A stretch of 22,049 nt of DNA from a virus. The DNA lies in the IMG/VR virus record IMGVR_UViG_3300020446_000092, positions 1-22,049 of that record, one strand, 5' to 3'. Shown in pieces: positions 7,504 to 13,959 of this stretch (its first letter is position 1; each line of letters starts with the position of its first letter). The notes under the pieces were generated by a model. That model was given only the letters and a program-made list of their open reading frames with translations, made no database searches and was not told the DNA's origin. The position numbers were made by a program, and so were the translations under genes.

Positions 7504-7890
7504 TTACCCCAAGTCAATCTCAACCTTGATGTCTCCAGCATGAAGATGCATGTGTTTCTCTGGCGCTTTCAATCCTGCCCTGTCCAACAAATCCTTGGAG
7601 GCTTCAAGCTGCACATACTCAGATTTCGCATTGGCTGACAGTCGCGTCACTTGGTGGAGGGCTTGGGTCGCCTTTGCGCCTAACTCATCTCTTACTCTTT
7701 GCATCATGTAAGACTGCACATGTGGTTTAGCTAAAGCCTTGCTTGCGCTGACTCTTCCCGTTTCACCGTCCGCGTATCCCGCCGCCGCAGCCGCCTCTTT
7801 TATCGTGCCGCCATTGGCTACCAAGTGTTCCACAAGCGCCTCTTGTTTGGCTGTCAATCCTGTATCGGGATTCTTGACCGCATTACCCAT
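7504..7890 (-). CDS. Terminase small subunit
   Basis: 128 aa from the ATG at 7890. The small terminase recognises the packaging site and brings the large subunit to the DNA. The N-terminal half reads as a typical small-terminase HTH: LTAKQEALVEHLVANGGT, then IKEAAAAAGYADG and SASKALAKPHVQSYM. The C-terminal part is helical (oligomerisation) and ends EIDLG, plausibly the tail that contacts the large subunit. The ATG at 7890 has a strong purine ribosome binding site (GGAAGG about 8 bases before); an ATG at 7926 would add 12 hydrophilic residues but has no good site. It is separated from the large terminase by about 3.4 kb of small genes, and its upstream flank carries a perfect hairpin at 7950-7966. 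Confidence 0.85.
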   Translation of the reverse strand: MGNAVKNPDTGLTAKQEALVEHLVANGGTIKEAAAAAGYADGETGRVSASKALAKPHVQSYMMQRVRDELGAKATQALHQVTRLSANAKSEYVQLEASKDLLDRAGLKAPEKHMHLHAGDIKVEIDLG

Positions 7891-7949
7891 TTGCTTGCCT
7901 TCCTTCCTTCCATCTTGCTTGTCCATCGACTAGCACATAATCCTAAGCA

Positions 7950-8188: not shown

Positions 8189-8217
8189 TTGCAAATGGGT
8201 ATAACTTTGGGTATAAA
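8189..8217 (+). promoter_or_regulatory. Sigma-70-type promoter of the rightward operon
   Basis: TTGCAA (8189-8194) and TATAAA (8212-8217) are separated by exactly 17 bases, a strong match to the bacterial consensus, 28 bases before the first rightward gene. GGGTATAA occurs twice with a 12-base period (8197-8204 and 8209-8216), so the -10 region is duplicated and could also be an operator. A host-type promoter here fits early transcription by host RNA polymerase. Confidence 0.7.
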
Positions 8218-9960: not shown

Positions 9961-10141
9961 AGAGCCAAGCTTTGAATATGACTTGGTGAAGGCAGTCGCA
10001 CTCTTAAACAGACACATAGAGCAAGAAAGCTTTGTCGAATATGGGACTGAGTCGAAAGTTATTCACGCACGAAATCATGTGCTGAGTGCAATCGGCGCTT
10101 TGCAAGATATGGGGCTAATGACTGATGACCAGCAAGAGTAA
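9941..10141 (+). CDS. Hypothetical early protein
   Basis: 66 aa, one domain, mostly helical: YDLVKAVALLNRHIEQESF, then ESKVIHARNHVLSAIGALQD, ending MTDDQQE. No family is recognised. AAAGGAGG sits 7 bases before the ATG, a strong site. It overlaps the zinc-ribbon gene by 20 bases and the nuclease gene by 17 bases. Confidence 0.68.
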   Translation: MLGENYKEPSFEYDLVKAVALLNRHIEQESFVEYGTESKVIHARNHVLSAIGALQDMGLMTDDQQE

Positions 10142-10463
10142 GGCAAAAGGGACATACCACGAGAAGTGGTTTGTTGACCTGTTCAAACGATGGGGCTTGG
10201 CGGTCAAACGCCAGCCTCTATCAGGCTCACTTGGAGGAGAATATTCGGGCGACTTGGTTATCAACTTGAATGGCCGGGACTACATTGCCGAGGTCAAATA
10301 CCGCAAAGAGAAAGGCTTTCCCTCACCATTCTCAGTTTTGAAGAATCGAGATGTCGCATTGTTCAAGCTAGGCAAAGGTGAGGAAGGCTCACCCAAATGG
10401 GTGCTGATTGTGCCTGACAGAATTATTGAGGAACTAATGGAGAAAGAAAATGGAAGCGATTAA
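10125..10463 (+). CDS. Holliday-junction-resolvase-like PD-(D/E)XK nuclease
   Basis: 112 aa. The pattern is that of the archaeal Hjc / RecB-type small resolvases: KGTYHEKWFVDLFKRWG with Glu13 in the first helix, then QPLSGSLGGEYSGDLVI with Asp43, then RDYIAEVKYR with Glu56-Val-Lys58, then a late basic helix. The catalytic set E...D...ExK is complete. It would cleave branched recombination or replication intermediates before packaging. Its neighbours (DnaA-domain protein, exonuclease, annealing protein, SSB-like protein) fit a recombination-based replication module. It overlaps the gene before by 17 bases and the one after by 14 bases. A VRR-type or restriction-like nuclease is the alternative. 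Confidence 0.8.
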   Translation: MTSKSKAKGTYHEKWFVDLFKRWGLAVKRQPLSGSLGGEYSGDLVINLNGRDYIAEVKYRKEKGFPSPFSVLKNRDVALFKLGKGEEGSPKWVLIVPDRIIEELMEKENGSD

Positions 10464-10872
10464 AATTGAAATGGTTGATGATGTAAAATCAAAATACTAC
10501 TCAGCCGCCAGTGCAACACGCGCAGTGTGCGAAGTGTTTGACATTGAAAGAGAGGAACTATTGGGCAAGAAGCGGTCATTCAAACAGACCAAGCCGCGCA
10601 TGGCGCTTTACTATCTTGCTTATGAGAACACAGCACACACCACCACAACGCTTGGCGAATACATGAACCGAGACCATACCTCGGTCATTCATGGAATACG
10701 CAAATGCAAGCGACTGATGGAAGAAAGCAACATCTACAATTCAAATGTGATGAAGGCTCACTTGCTGGCAATGCAGTATGAAAATGAACGCAAGCCACAC
10801 TTCGAAAAACTAAAAGCAGAAGTGCAGCAAATGGTCGATCGAATTAATATGGAGAGACTCAATGAACTTTGA
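10450..10872 (+). CDS. Stand-alone DnaA domain IV (DnaA-box-binding) protein
   Basis: 140 aa. Residues about 20-92 match the C-terminal DNA-binding domain of the bacterial replication initiator DnaA: VCEVFDIEREELLGKKRS, then KPRMALYYLAYE, then the signature YMNRDHTSVIHGIRK at 71-85. There is no AAA+ ATPase and no DnaB-contact domain; the rest is a helical tail (residues 93-140). It should bind DnaA boxes or similar sites. It might mark the phage origin, recruit or displace host DnaA, or block host initiation. Which of these applies cannot be told from sequence. It is embedded between the resolvase-like gene and an unknown gene with short overlaps. Confidence 0.85.
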   Translation: MEAIKIEMVDDVKSKYYSAASATRAVCEVFDIEREELLGKKRSFKQTKPRMALYYLAYENTAHTTTTLGEYMNRDHTSVIHGIRKCKRLMEESNIYNSNVMKAHLLAMQYENERKPHFEKLKAEVQQMVDRINMERLNEL

Positions 10873-11380
10873 GCAAAGAGAAGCACTGATACATGAGAAC
10901 TTCATCCGCAAGATGACAACAATGTATCTGCCACCAAATAATGTAAAGCAAAGCGATGCATCAAAGAAACTTTATGGCGAGGAACTACGCAAGGCAATCA
11001 ACCAACGATTAAGCAGCGACATACCCAATGCCGAACTGTTCAATGATTTGCTCGGCAAGGTATGGGACAAATGCGTGGCAGCGCATGACTTCCGCATCTG
11101 GTTCACACCTCACTTGGTTGCCAAACATACAGCCAAAGTAAATGCCGAATGGCAACAACGCCAAAGCAAAGCAAACAAATTGTTTGAGATAGCCGGGCAA
11201 GCGGCCGAAGAACGGCCACGGCCTAACAAGCTTGACCCAGCCGGGCAAGGCTGGACAATCGAAAAGTGTGATGCAGCGATTGAATACACCAGACAAGAAC
11301 TGGGCTACACAGCTTCAGCAGATTCTTTTTGCCGCATTGTAGAGAAAGCAAAAGAAAGATTGCTCAATGCACGTGATTAG
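10862..11380 (+). CDS. Hypothetical protein, possible replication accessory
   Basis: 172 aa. N-terminal helices (YLPPNNVKQSDASKKLYGEE) lead to a conserved-looking WFTPHLVAKHTAKVNAEW, then a Pro/Arg linker (EERPRPNKLDPAGQGW) and a C-terminal helical unit (DAAIEYTRQELG). No family is recognised. The 11-base overlap with the DnaA-domain gene means it is probably made together with it; a role in replication is suggested by that position only. Confidence 0.7.
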   Translation: MNFEQREALIHENFIRKMTTMYLPPNNVKQSDASKKLYGEELRKAINQRLSSDIPNAELFNDLLGKVWDKCVAAHDFRIWFTPHLVAKHTAKVNAEWQQRQSKANKLFEIAGQAAEERPRPNKLDPAGQGWTIEKCDAAIEYTRQELGYTASADSFCRIVEKAKERLLNARD

Positions 11381-12044
11381 TCTTTACGATTACACTGGGT
11401 TTGCACTCATGCCGTGGCGCAATGCTGGGTATGAGTGCTACGCCTATGACATTGCTCACGAGGATACGCAAAAGGACGGGATAAACTTCCTTCATGCAGA
11501 CCTTCACCAACAGTCAACGCTTGATGAGATTGCGGCGTTTCACGATGGACGCGCCATGTTCATGTCTTGCTTTCCTGTTTGCACTGACTTGGCTGTGTCC
11601 GGGGCAGCTTGGTTTGCCAAGAAGCGCGAAGCTAACCCACGCTTTCAAAACGAAGCGGCTGGCCACGCAATCGCTTGCGCCGCAGTCGGAGACTATCTTG
11701 GCTGTCCATACTTTGTAGAAAATCCAGTGTCGGTTCTGTCGAGCCTATGGCGTAAACCTGATTATTCCTTTCACCCCTTCGAGTATGGTGGCTATCTGCC
11801 AACAGATGACAAGCACCCGATATGGCCTGACTATATTGCCGGGCAAGACAGGTATTCGAAAAAAACATGCCTATGGACTAATGGCCTATTCAAGATGCCA
11901 AAGAAAAAACCAGTCGACCACACTGTCAAAGGGCGAAGCACGCAGGACTCGCAACTTGGCGGCAAGACAGAAAAGACAAAACGAATTAGATCCGCAACGC
12001 CAAGGGGCTTTGCACAGGCAGTTTTTGAGGCAAACAAATACTAG
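11367..12044 (+). CDS. Small C5-type DNA cytosine methyltransferase
   Basis: 225 aa. Motif I is recognisable as ISLYDYTGF with the acidic YDI at residues 27-29 (SAM binding). Residues 67-78 read SCFPVCTDLAVS, in the place of motif IV, where Cys72 would be the nucleophile of the usual PPC(Q/T) loop; here PV replaces PP. FVENP at 116-120 is motif VI. SATPRGFAQAVFEAN near the end corresponds to the closing motif X region (I..A.P..FA). The protein is much shorter than stand-alone C5 methyltransferases and has no obvious target recognition domain. It could protect phage DNA from host restriction. It overlaps the upstream gene by 14 bases and is followed by the first real gap of the operon (45 bases). 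Confidence 0.75.
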   Translation: MHVISLYDYTGFALMPWRNAGYECYAYDIAHEDTQKDGINFLHADLHQQSTLDEIAAFHDGRAMFMSCFPVCTDLAVSGAAWFAKKREANPRFQNEAAGHAIACAAVGDYLGCPYFVENPVSVLSSLWRKPDYSFHPFEYGGYLPTDDKHPIWPDYIAGQDRYSKKTCLWTNGLFKMPKKKPVDHTVKGRSTQDSQLGGKTEKTKRIRSATPRGFAQAVFEANKY

Positions 12045-12089: not shown

Positions 12090-12917
12090 ATGAGTAGAGA
12101 TAACGACATCAGAAAAGTATCTATCGGCGGCAGTTGCGCCTTGCGAATCATGGATGGTGATTGGCATGGACTCTGGATGGAAAAGATGGGCTATCGTGAA
12201 GGCGCTGACCTATCCAAAGTATTACAAGTGCAGCTTGGCGTTTGGACTGAGGAGTTCAACATCAAATGGTTTGAGAAGTTCAACCAAGTTGAATGCTACA
12301 AAGGTGCAAACGGAGACTATGAACACCGCTACCATTACAAATGGGAAGGTGTGCCATGCCGGGCGACACTTGATGCAGAGTTCAAGATGCGCGGTGAGCG
12401 ATACGGCTTGGAGTGCAAGCATACAAATGAACGCGCTACAATGCGTAAGCAGCTTGAACGTTACATGCCACAGCTACAACTCTACCTAGAAATATCCGGC
12501 GTGAAGGCAATGTATTTTGCAAACATCTTCGGCAACAGCCGATATGAATATGTGAAGGTTGCAAAGGATGACCAGTATCTTGAACAGATGTTTGTCCATT
12601 TGAAAGAGTTCTGGGGCTATGTTGAACGCAAAGAAGAGCCGCCACAATCTATGCCGCACTTTTCTGCAAGCATAGACCAAGTCCCCATCAACGATATGGT
12701 CGCCCGTGATGCCACCAGTGACAACTACTTTGCAGTTCGGGCGGCTGAATATATCAGCACAATGGACGCAGCCAAAGAACACGAAGCAGCCAAGAAAGAC
12801 CTGAAAGGAATGGTCGGGCTAGATGAACGAGAAGTTTACAATGACCGACTGAGCATTAAACGAGATGTGCGTGGTGCGCTGCGCTTCAAAGTAAAAAAAG
12901 GGAGCAGAGCGGAGTAG
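12090..12917 (+). CDS. YqaJ-type phage exonuclease (lambda-exo-like)
   Basis: 275 aa. The PD-(D/E)XK core is complete: LGVWTEEFN at residues 49-57, ATLDAEF with Asp95, YGLECKHTN with Glu108-Cys-Lys110, then YMPQLQLYLEISG at 125-137 (the Tyr/Gln helix typical of YqaJ and lambda exonuclease). It should chew one strand of double-stranded ends to give single strands for the annealing protein two genes downstream. The C-terminal 90 residues are helical and basic at the end. It starts with an AAGGTAGGT ribosome binding site after a 45-base gap. A RecB-like nuclease is a less likely alternative. Confidence 0.85.
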   Translation: MSRDNDIRKVSIGGSCALRIMDGDWHGLWMEKMGYREGADLSKVLQVQLGVWTEEFNIKWFEKFNQVECYKGANGDYEHRYHYKWEGVPCRATLDAEFKMRGERYGLECKHTNERATMRKQLERYMPQLQLYLEISGVKAMYFANIFGNSRYEYVKVAKDDQYLEQMFVHLKEFWGYVERKEEPPQSMPHFSASIDQVPINDMVARDATSDNYFAVRAAEYISTMDAAKEHEAAKKDLKGMVGLDEREVYNDRLSIKRDVRGALRFKVKKGSRAE

Positions 12918-12957: not shown

Positions 12958-13212
12958 ATGACCGACTATACAGCAACACCACTGATAAGTGAAGAGGCCG
13001 AGCCTCTAAACAAACTGATTGGTAATGAATACGAACTGGGCTGGCGTTCAGTTTGGATTCATACGCCAGACGAAGCTGTGCGGATTGAATACCGCAATAG
13101 CAGACTTGTTCTAACTGTTGTGCGAAAGGAGAAACAGGATGACACAGAGCAACAATATGGAACTATGGGAGAAGGTCTCCCAATCGGACTCACAATATCT
13201 GAAGAAGGTTAG
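12958..13212 (+). CDS. Hypothetical protein between exonuclease and annealing protein
   Basis: 84 aa. It reads as a small beta-rich protein (WRSVWIHTPDEAVRIEYRNS, then RLVLTVVRKEK) with an acidic, Gly-rich tail. It has a very strong ribosome binding site, AAAGGAGGT, 6 bases before the ATG. Its last 74 bases overlap the start of the annealing-protein gene in another frame, an unusually long overlap for this operon. It may be a regulator or partner of the recombinase pair; no family is recognised. Confidence 0.6.
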   Translation: MTDYTATPLISEEAEPLNKLIGNEYELGWRSVWIHTPDEAVRIEYRNSRLVLTVVRKEKQDDTEQQYGTMGEGLPIGLTISEEG

Positions 13213-13585
13213 CTTCAGCTCACGTTCTTTCACCAGTATTGACCCAATGTATCAGATACGCGAGGCAACTCGTGCGTTTGGCCCAATCGGACAAGGATGG
13301 GGATGGGATTCCGAAACAGAAACAGTGACTATGGCGAATGGTGATATGGCTTTTCTTGCACACATCACAGTTTGGCATGGTTCAAAAGACAACAGCTTCG
13401 GGCCATTTAGTGGTTGCCGGACTTTCTACAAGAAAGAACGCATCGCAGAGGACGCACCAAAGATGGCTGTCACAGATGGGCTGACCAAGGCATTGTCGCA
13501 CCTTGGATTCAACGCCGATGTGTTCCTTGGAGAACACGACAACAAGTATGCGGCAGATAGTAAAGGCGTAAAAGGAGATTGGTAA
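13139..13585 (+). CDS. Single-strand annealing protein (phage recombinase)
   Basis: 148 aa from the ATG at 13139, which has AAAGGAG about 8 bases before it; a longer frame from GTG/13118 is less likely. Key blocks are FTSIDPMYQIREATRAFGPI, GQGWGW near residues 51-56, and the C-terminal DAPKMAVTDGLTKALSHLGF followed by NADVFLGEHDNKY. The (D/E)AP...TD...KALS.LGF.AD...G..D(N)KY pattern is that of ERF/Rad52-like annealing proteins of phages. It anneals exonuclease-resected strands, giving a Red-like pair with the gene at 12090-12917. It is shorter than many relatives but has the central conserved core. Confidence 0.78.
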   Translation: MTQSNNMELWEKVSQSDSQYLKKVSFSSRSFTSIDPMYQIREATRAFGPIGQGWGWDSETETVTMANGDMAFLAHITVWHGSKDNSFGPFSGCRTFYKKERIAEDAPKMAVTDGLTKALSHLGFNADVFLGEHDNKYAADSKGVKGDW

Positions 13586-13959
13586 TGAGCCAAACTTACG
13601 ACAACACAGATAGCGGGGCAGTATTCCCTCCCCGTGACAACCACAAGATGATCCTGTCAGGACGAGTAAACAATGATGGCAAAGACAGTCATATGATTGT
13701 CACCATGTCTACACTGCCAGACGGTAGGAAAATTATGGATGTCTATGAAAAGACTGGAACTCTTTTCCCAAATGACAAAAAAGGCGATAACGCTAACGCG
13801 CCAGACTACACTGGCCCGATTGGACATCGCCGCATTGCAGCTTGGCGCAAGCAGAAAGATGATATGAACTTTATGTCTGTTTCACTAAGCGACAAACAAT
13901 CAGGTGGTAATAATGCAGAAACACGTAGCCAGCCAATGGATGACTCAATCCCCTTCTAA
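13585..13959 (+). CDS. SSB-like single-strand DNA-binding protein
   Basis: 124 aa. The C terminus is PMDDSIPF, nearly the acidic tip of bacterial SSB (DDDIPF) that recruits partner enzymes. The body begins YDNTDSGAVF and later has TGTLFPND...APDYTGPIG then FMSVSLSDKQ, matching a family of small phage proteins (Y.N...G.LF.N....HPDYTG......F.S(L/V)S..) that carry this tip. The G(A/T)(V/L)FP element occurs twice, about 48 residues apart (11-15 and 58-62), hinting at an internal duplication. The ATG at 13585 overlaps the previous stop (TAATG) with AGGAG 8 bases before; a TTG two codons earlier is too close to that site. It probably coats single strands made by the exonuclease. Confidence 0.75.
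   Translation: MSQTYDNTDSGAVFPPRDNHKMILSGRVNNDGKDSHMIVTMSTLPDGRKIMDVYEKTGTLFPNDKKGDNANAPDYTGPIGHRRIAAWRKQKDDMNFMSVSLSDKQSGGNNAETRSQPMDDSIPF

Follow-up and report, generated by a model that had tools for sequence, protein, structure and literature searches.

The stretch of DNA analysed here (the window, a 22,049-base IMG/VR record) contains an early operon that spans about 8.2-14.9 kb, within which two overlapping genes, dnaA4 and NB, are embedded among recombination genes, with a tandem DnaA-box-like site at the early promoter (Table 1). The terminase large subunit shares 65% identity with its counterpart in Pelagibacter phage EXVC031P Hodr; the G+C content is 46% compared with 33% in Hodr. 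A portal-type connector, an endolysin and tail genes are also recognised and, judging from the comparison with Hodr, the portion of the genome absent from this 22-kb fragment should hold the structural genes. Two neighbouring proteins encoded on the minus strand (positions 1535-1951 and 1951-2556) have a common C-terminal stretch, GMTRKRGKASLLS..GGAGFF.RYF, like a partial copy of one another. The record named Hodr (EXVC031P) in our set (L004, OQ414635) has locus tags that bear another phage name, EXVC032PBaldr.

In the window, the gene order is RusA-like, dnaA4, NB, methyltransferase-like, YqaJ and ERF. The early operon was originally predicted to combine recombination genes with the lack of a polymerase or helicase, and this holds: it contains four such genes (RusA-like, YqaJ/RecE-like, ERF/Rad52-like and SSB-like), no DnaB helicase was found in the window, and DnaB and PolA are absent from 30/30 related contigs. 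In the early operon of one relative, an open reading frame of 320 aa (L003:2852-3814) is presumably an ArdC-type antirestriction protein. A more distant relative, MEP301, is described as having no polymerases of its own (PMC8024684).

Table 1. Genes and sites of the early region of the window.
Feature	Position	Strand	Remarks
Terminase small subunit (terS)	7504-7926	-	Divergent from the early operon
Early-operon promoter-like TTGCAA-17-TATAAA	8189-8217	+	9/12 matches; overlapped by the tandem site
Tandem pair TTATACCCA-aag-TTATACCCA	8196-8216 (8196-8204, 8208-8216)	-	Head-to-tail 9-mers, pitch 12 bp; proposed site for binding by dnaA4 (operator, origin or both)
RusA/PDDEXK Holliday-junction-resolvase-like	10125-10463	+	Upstream border of the initiator slot; Pfam/PHROGs searches
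dnaA4	10450-10872	+	140 aa, ATG start; stand-alone DnaA domain IV and long C-terminal helix; proposed replication initiator
NB	10862-11380	+	172 aa, all-helical; start overlaps dnaA4 stop; proposed helicase-loader-like partner
Methyltransferase-like	11367-12044	+	PHROG DNA methyltransferase phrog_757, E 8.2e-71; no Pfam family reported; next after NB
YqaJ/RecE-like exonuclease	12090-12917	+	Downstream of the initiator slot
ERF/Rad52-like annealing protein	13118-13585	+	phrog_7838, E 6.8e-36; Pfam Rad52_Rad22, E 0.022, below cut-off
SSB-like protein	13579-13959	+	phrog_18154, E 7.3e-6

The dnaA4 product and its overlapping partner

The dnaA4 product had been predicted to be a DnaA domain IV standing alone, and the searches bear this out. 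The open reading frame coincides exactly with the predicted one, residues 24-85 match Pfam Bac_DnaA_C (PF08299) with an E-value of 1.8e-15 (57.2 bits, over the curated cut-off of 31.5), and neither the AAA+ domain III nor domain I nor any other DnaA domain was matched in the 140-aa ORF. In PHROGs, an unnamed family alone is matched (E 0.0026). The nearest solved sequence in a phmmer search of the PDB is that of 1J1V, the E. coli DnaA domain IV with a DnaA box (E 6.9e-10). An AlphaFold model based on an alignment of 20 relatives (pLDDT 86) resembles two DnaA-box complexes, 3PVP and 1J1V, with target-normalised TM-scores of 0.91 and 0.87, respectively. Across the 20 relatives the invariant residues are R42 in the basic loop, R50 and D75-H76-T77, together with M1; the domain IV fold, the basic-loop arginine and the DHT motif are all present, and the DNA contacts on which the original prediction depended are thus kept. 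R42 aligns to the position called E. coli R399 in PMC9638019. Chromosomal DnaA has the domain IV fold and the box contacts in common with dnaA4, whereas dnaA4 is devoid of domains I-III and of the ATPase. Domain IV is preceded by a short N-terminal tail and followed at the C-terminus by a helix predicted to span 46 residues (94-139), which could serve in dimerisation or in holding a partner. A search of bacterial genomes with dnaA4 returned 80 loci, nearly all less than 40% identical.

The start of NB falls within the final codons of dnaA4. NB has no Pfam family and matches only an unnamed family in PHROGs (E 0.099), and no relatives were found in the phage collection or in bacterial genomes. 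Two viral scans yielded 33 and then 62 NB loci, 63 with the window. In 58 of these 63, dnaA4 lies directly upstream with overlapping ends; a 59th locus with dnaA4 (L272) is truncated by the contig end, and in L277 an HTH_36 (O-like) protein is found upstream of NB in place of dnaA4. Three contigs (L259, L278 and L279) start within NB and were left out, and an initiator-type gene is located just upstream of NB in 60/60 assessable loci (59 dnaA4, one O-like HTH_36).

What could NB contribute to such a pair? The NB model is all helical (pLDDT 86, pTM 0.58). In a Foldseek search of the entire PDB it ranks 9OA1 first, a structure of DnaB with the helicase loader lambda P, as a weak match (E 0.6), and VIA-align gives a Z of 8.4 over 87 residues, in a range (below about 13) where, according to the tool, helical bundles may mean little. 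The sequence profile of NB has no convincing match in the PDB. It does align with the second gene of the initiator module of a sister phage, L090, as a remote homologue (hhalign E 2.7e-5, probability 74%, 82 columns); no relation was detected to the corresponding partner gene of L056. NB would be a helicase loader, a role suggested mainly by its gene slot, with weak likeness to lambda P.

The initiator slot and its occupants

The slot of dnaA4 was compared in eight contigs that have the RusA-like gene and are without dnaA4. In five of them (L056, L067, L089, L090 and L092) an HTH_36-type protein comes directly after the RusA-like gene, and in the two that reach further, L056 and L090, it is followed by a second gene and then by YqaJ. 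The slot proteins of these two match Pfam HTH_36 and PHROGs families named 'replication initiation protein' or 'O-like' (phrog_1032, E 6.4e-18, for L056; phrog_270, E 6.6e-31, for L090), while those of L067, L089 and L092 were assigned by their likeness to them. The slot of L096 is filled by another small gene with weak DnaT similarity; as for the remaining two contigs, Hodr is arranged differently and L043 ends at the slot. No match to HTH_36 (PF13730), the winged-helix domain of lambda O-like initiators, was found within the window. The relatives have their own replication-initiation gene in the same place, and therefore dnaA4 is most likely the replication initiator of the phage.

The lambda O/P-type modules of L056 and L090 resemble the window in having an initiator and a second gene between the RusA-like and YqaJ genes and in depending on host polymerase and helicase, and in L090 the second gene is the remote NB relative. 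Unlike in these modules, the initiator in the window has a DnaA domain IV in place of a winged helix. In lambda, the origin iterons are located inside the initiator gene. In the window, by contrast, the predicted site is about 2 kb upstream at the early promoter, and no convincing iterons were found in dnaA4-NB (window 10100-11400) or within the O-like genes.

Comparison of the two genes between contigs reveals that their identities do not run in parallel. The dnaA4 proteins of L119 and L115 are 33% identical and their NB proteins 98%, and the values for L003 and L114 are 54% and 99%. The opposite is found for L114 and L100 (dnaA4 99%, NB 76%) and for L003 and the window (92% and 67%). Other DnaA domains have repeatedly replaced dnaA4 ahead of the same NB, and on a longer scale dnaA4 has been exchanged with O-like genes.

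When 30 long contigs were searched for the two domain families, PF08299 was over the cut-off in 12 and HTH_36 in four, and a single contig, L036 (G007), has both. Its dnaA4 lies outside the slot, next to an unrelated gene that is not NB. Because L036 carries dnaA4 as well as an HTH_36 protein, not every stand-alone DnaA domain IV is the initiator of its phage, and the case suggests a second, perhaps regulatory, use of this domain. Stand-alone DnaA domain IV proteins apart from the NB pair are encoded at L036:3901-4338 and L058:3418-3726, both on the minus strand.

A tandem DnaA-box-like site at the early promoter

A lack of clustered DnaA-box-like sites, which would have counted against the original prediction, was found for strict boxes only. 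The canonical box TTWTNCACA does not occur in the window (0 observed vs 2.96 expected), and a plain DnaA-box cluster was rejected; of all tandems of one-mismatch boxes in the window, however, the best is positioned exactly in the early promoter. This tandem was reached by way of a lone TTATACACA that recurs in relatives, about 2 kb ahead of dnaA4. A stricter promoter scanner, which requires the second hexamer to end in T, omits the promoter-like sequence of Table 1.

Similar pairs at the same 12-bp spacing are found in relatives: TTATACCCA-N3-TTATACACA, head to tail, in L100, TTATGCACA-N3-TTATCCACA in L121 and TTATACACG-N3-TTATCCCCA in L113, as well as TTATCCCCT-N3-TTATACACA in the opposite orientation in L104. 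In most backgrounds -35/-10-like hexamers embrace the pair, as in L113 (TTGACA-16-TATAAG). In L104 and L022 the flanks align (87% and 97%), whereas the site-bearing stretch does not. A TTGCGCAA palindrome is present upstream of the tandem site in some dnaA4-containing contigs (L002, L020, L022, L035, L099, L100 and others) and absent from the window.

Pairs were scored against the plain consensus TTATNCACA, with 8 letters per box and a threshold of at least 14/16; the first scoring was partly tuned after the discovery (C was allowed at position 7), and the counts were repeated with plain TTATNCACA. Loci that share a contig with another locus (L001, L008-L011, L103, L109, L122, L126 and L130-L142) were dropped from the pair, permutation and terS counts. 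At a pitch of 12 there are 28 pairs in 1.26 Mb of loci, compared with 0 to 12 at each of the other pitches from 9 to 30. Twenty-three of the 28 belong to this phage group, four to L014 and L018, which are bacterial dnaA contigs, and one to a Microcystis phage (L007). The 23 group pairs sit in 22 contigs, always within the terS/early region or its homologous counterpart, and dnaA4 is present in 21 of the 22, the remaining one (L032, pair 14/16) being too short to tell, with just 1 kb on the early side. When 60 permuted consensus words were scored, the median was 3 pairs at pitch 12 and the largest count 15, vs 24 for the real word (the 23 in the group plus the one in L007, in the same contigs); this control left out the bacterial contigs L012-L015 and L018. 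Several of the phage-collection records behind these five contigs contain a full-length bacterial dnaA, and L018 is chromosomal DNA, since rpmH, rnpA, dnaA, dnaN, recF and gyrB are present.

Is the site linked to the gene? With terS as an anchor for the homologous intergenic region, a pair of at least 14/16 was found in 19/25 contigs with dnaA4 and in 0/7 contigs without it, all of which have 4 kb or more on the early side and score no higher than 12. Two more dnaA4 contigs, L003 and L120, score 13/16 at the right place and are counted outside the 19. Three are without the site (L025, L058 and L036, with 11, 12 and 10 of 16), and L030 was counted with them because its 13/16 pair is off the promoter, which holds only a single box. 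Among contigs not used for motif discovery, the site is in place in both that have terS (L247 and L252), and in L270 it is in place upstream of dnaA4. A pattern search of such contigs allowing up to 2 mismatches matched 6/23 with dnaA4, most of the 23 being fragments that may end short of the region, and 0/7 without it; the matches lie in the expected place in G041, G045 and G051 (the same three contigs, L247, L252 and L270) and elsewhere in G033, G036 and G052, and a reversed control word matched 3/30 contigs. These site counts are not independent, because many of the dnaA4 contigs are close relatives or near copies, and the independent promoter backgrounds number about five or six at most. 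Furthermore, part of the box similarity could stem from the AT-rich -10, since the site overlaps the -35/-10 elements.

Proposed role of dnaA4 and NB

We propose, with a probability of about 0.63, that dnaA4 is the replication initiator of a podovirus-like phage without polymerase or helicase of its own, working with NB as its partner. A DnaA domain IV would have taken the place that a winged-helix DNA-binding protein has in a lambda O-type module, and its conserved box contacts would grip the tandem pair over the early promoter. Together with the translationally overlapping NB, it would then bring the host DnaB, and hence the host replisome, to the phage DNA, in much the same manner as lambda O and P. 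With its site on the promoter core, dnaA4 is also proposed to repress its own operon. The fold, the kept contacts, the slot, the gene pair, the cassette exchange and the site that goes with dnaA4 are results of computation, from which binding at the site, autorepression, helicase loading by NB, recruitment of host DnaB and origin activity are inferred. The original suggestion that the protein binds DnaA boxes to draw host replication proteins is thus supported by the initiator slot, the loader-like partner and the DnaA-box-like tandem sites of the group. More tentatively, the proposal might extend to an origin run with no AAA+ initiator, for which DnaA domain IV and a small loader suffice, to two promoter-embedded DnaA-box-like repeats acting as operator and origin at once, and to a DnaA-domain initiator cassette that moves freely between phages, and trades places with O-like initiators, ahead of a conserved loader. 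Two boxes are few for an origin, which counts against the site as origin.

The main rival is a pure transcription role, in which dnaA4 would regulate the early promoter only, like the DnaA-like N-terminal domain of GafA from the Rhodobacter gene transfer agent. The position of the tandem site on the promoter core would fit such a regulator, as would L036, where dnaA4 lies outside the initiator slot in a phage that has an O-like gene too. According to PMC9638019, GafA activates transcription via RNA polymerase omega, so a DnaA-like DNA-binding domain apart from DnaA can serve transcription, and in Hyphomicrobiales GafA is split, with the small DnaA-like gene preceding another gene as dnaA4 precedes NB. 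The partner part of GafA is described in the same paper as DUF6456 (the name of the GafA homologues) and sigma-like, whereas no DUF6456 was found in the window NB or among the matches of 18 NB relatives. The minor-groove arginine (R399) is replaced by E8 in GafA and is invariant in the dnaA4 relatives, and DNA binding by GafA-Nc is given as mostly non-specific in that paper. The slot of dnaA4 is that of O-like initiators, and we consider a role restricted to transcription unlikely.

A role directed at the host has even less probability. Having kept the box-reading surface and no AAA+ domain, dnaA4 could bind without opening the DNA and compete with host DnaA for boxes at the host oriC or host promoters, stopping host initiation. 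This is highly improbable, as it accounts neither for the initiator slot and the overlap with NB nor for the exchange of cassettes and the dnaA4-linked phage tandem sites; the block of host initiation offered in the original prediction finds no evidence here and is not needed. Least probable in our view is that the boxes are targets of host DnaA, tuning early transcription to the host replication state, with dnaA4 acting as an anti-DnaA at its own promoter. The sites do resemble ordinary DnaA boxes, and tandems of 12-bp pitch are present in bacterial DNA too (dnaA contigs L014 and L018), but sister phages without dnaA4, which meet host DnaA too, have no site (0/7).

How does dnaA4 as an initiator relate to other DnaA-like genes of mobile elements? 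In the pelagiphages HTVC203P, HTVC100P and Skadi, recombination genes are likewise neighboured by genes for short proteins with DnaA domain IV standing alone; unlike dnaA4, these have no NB downstream and a longer N-terminal part. Genes annotated as 'DnaA' or DnaA-like also occur in Microcystis phage Mae-JY35 and in Bacillus podophage Pascal, the latter likened by annotation, not sequence. In the early promoters of Skadi, HTVC203P, HTVC100P and Mae-JY35 no 12-bp tandem stands out. The DnaA-like plasmid replicases of Rhodobacterales, likened here by their description in PMC9025767, offer a case where an extrachromosomal element has a DnaA-like protein as its replicase. Such plasmid replicases are known, and the label DnaA or DnaA-like initiator has already been given to phage genes in print and in records. 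In the open-licence PMC literature we found no account of a phage DnaA-domain-IV initiator with its sites; as far as this literature was searched, what is new is the bare DnaA domain IV displacing O-like initiators before one partner, the cassette exchange and the linked tandem site.

Many phages carry short 'DnaA'-labelled genes without a stated role, and in a relaxed viral search for DnaA 65 of 70 loci (out of 80) encode fewer than 300 aa. The case of dnaA4 links such a gene to a function via its slot and its partner gene, the exchange of cassettes and a candidate site of binding, while L036 warns that stand-alone DnaA domains can have more than one role. If the proposed role is true, replication can be started by the DNA-binding module of DnaA with no need for the ATPase, the helicase being loaded by a partner, and it would become possible to ask how little initiator suffices for origin opening.
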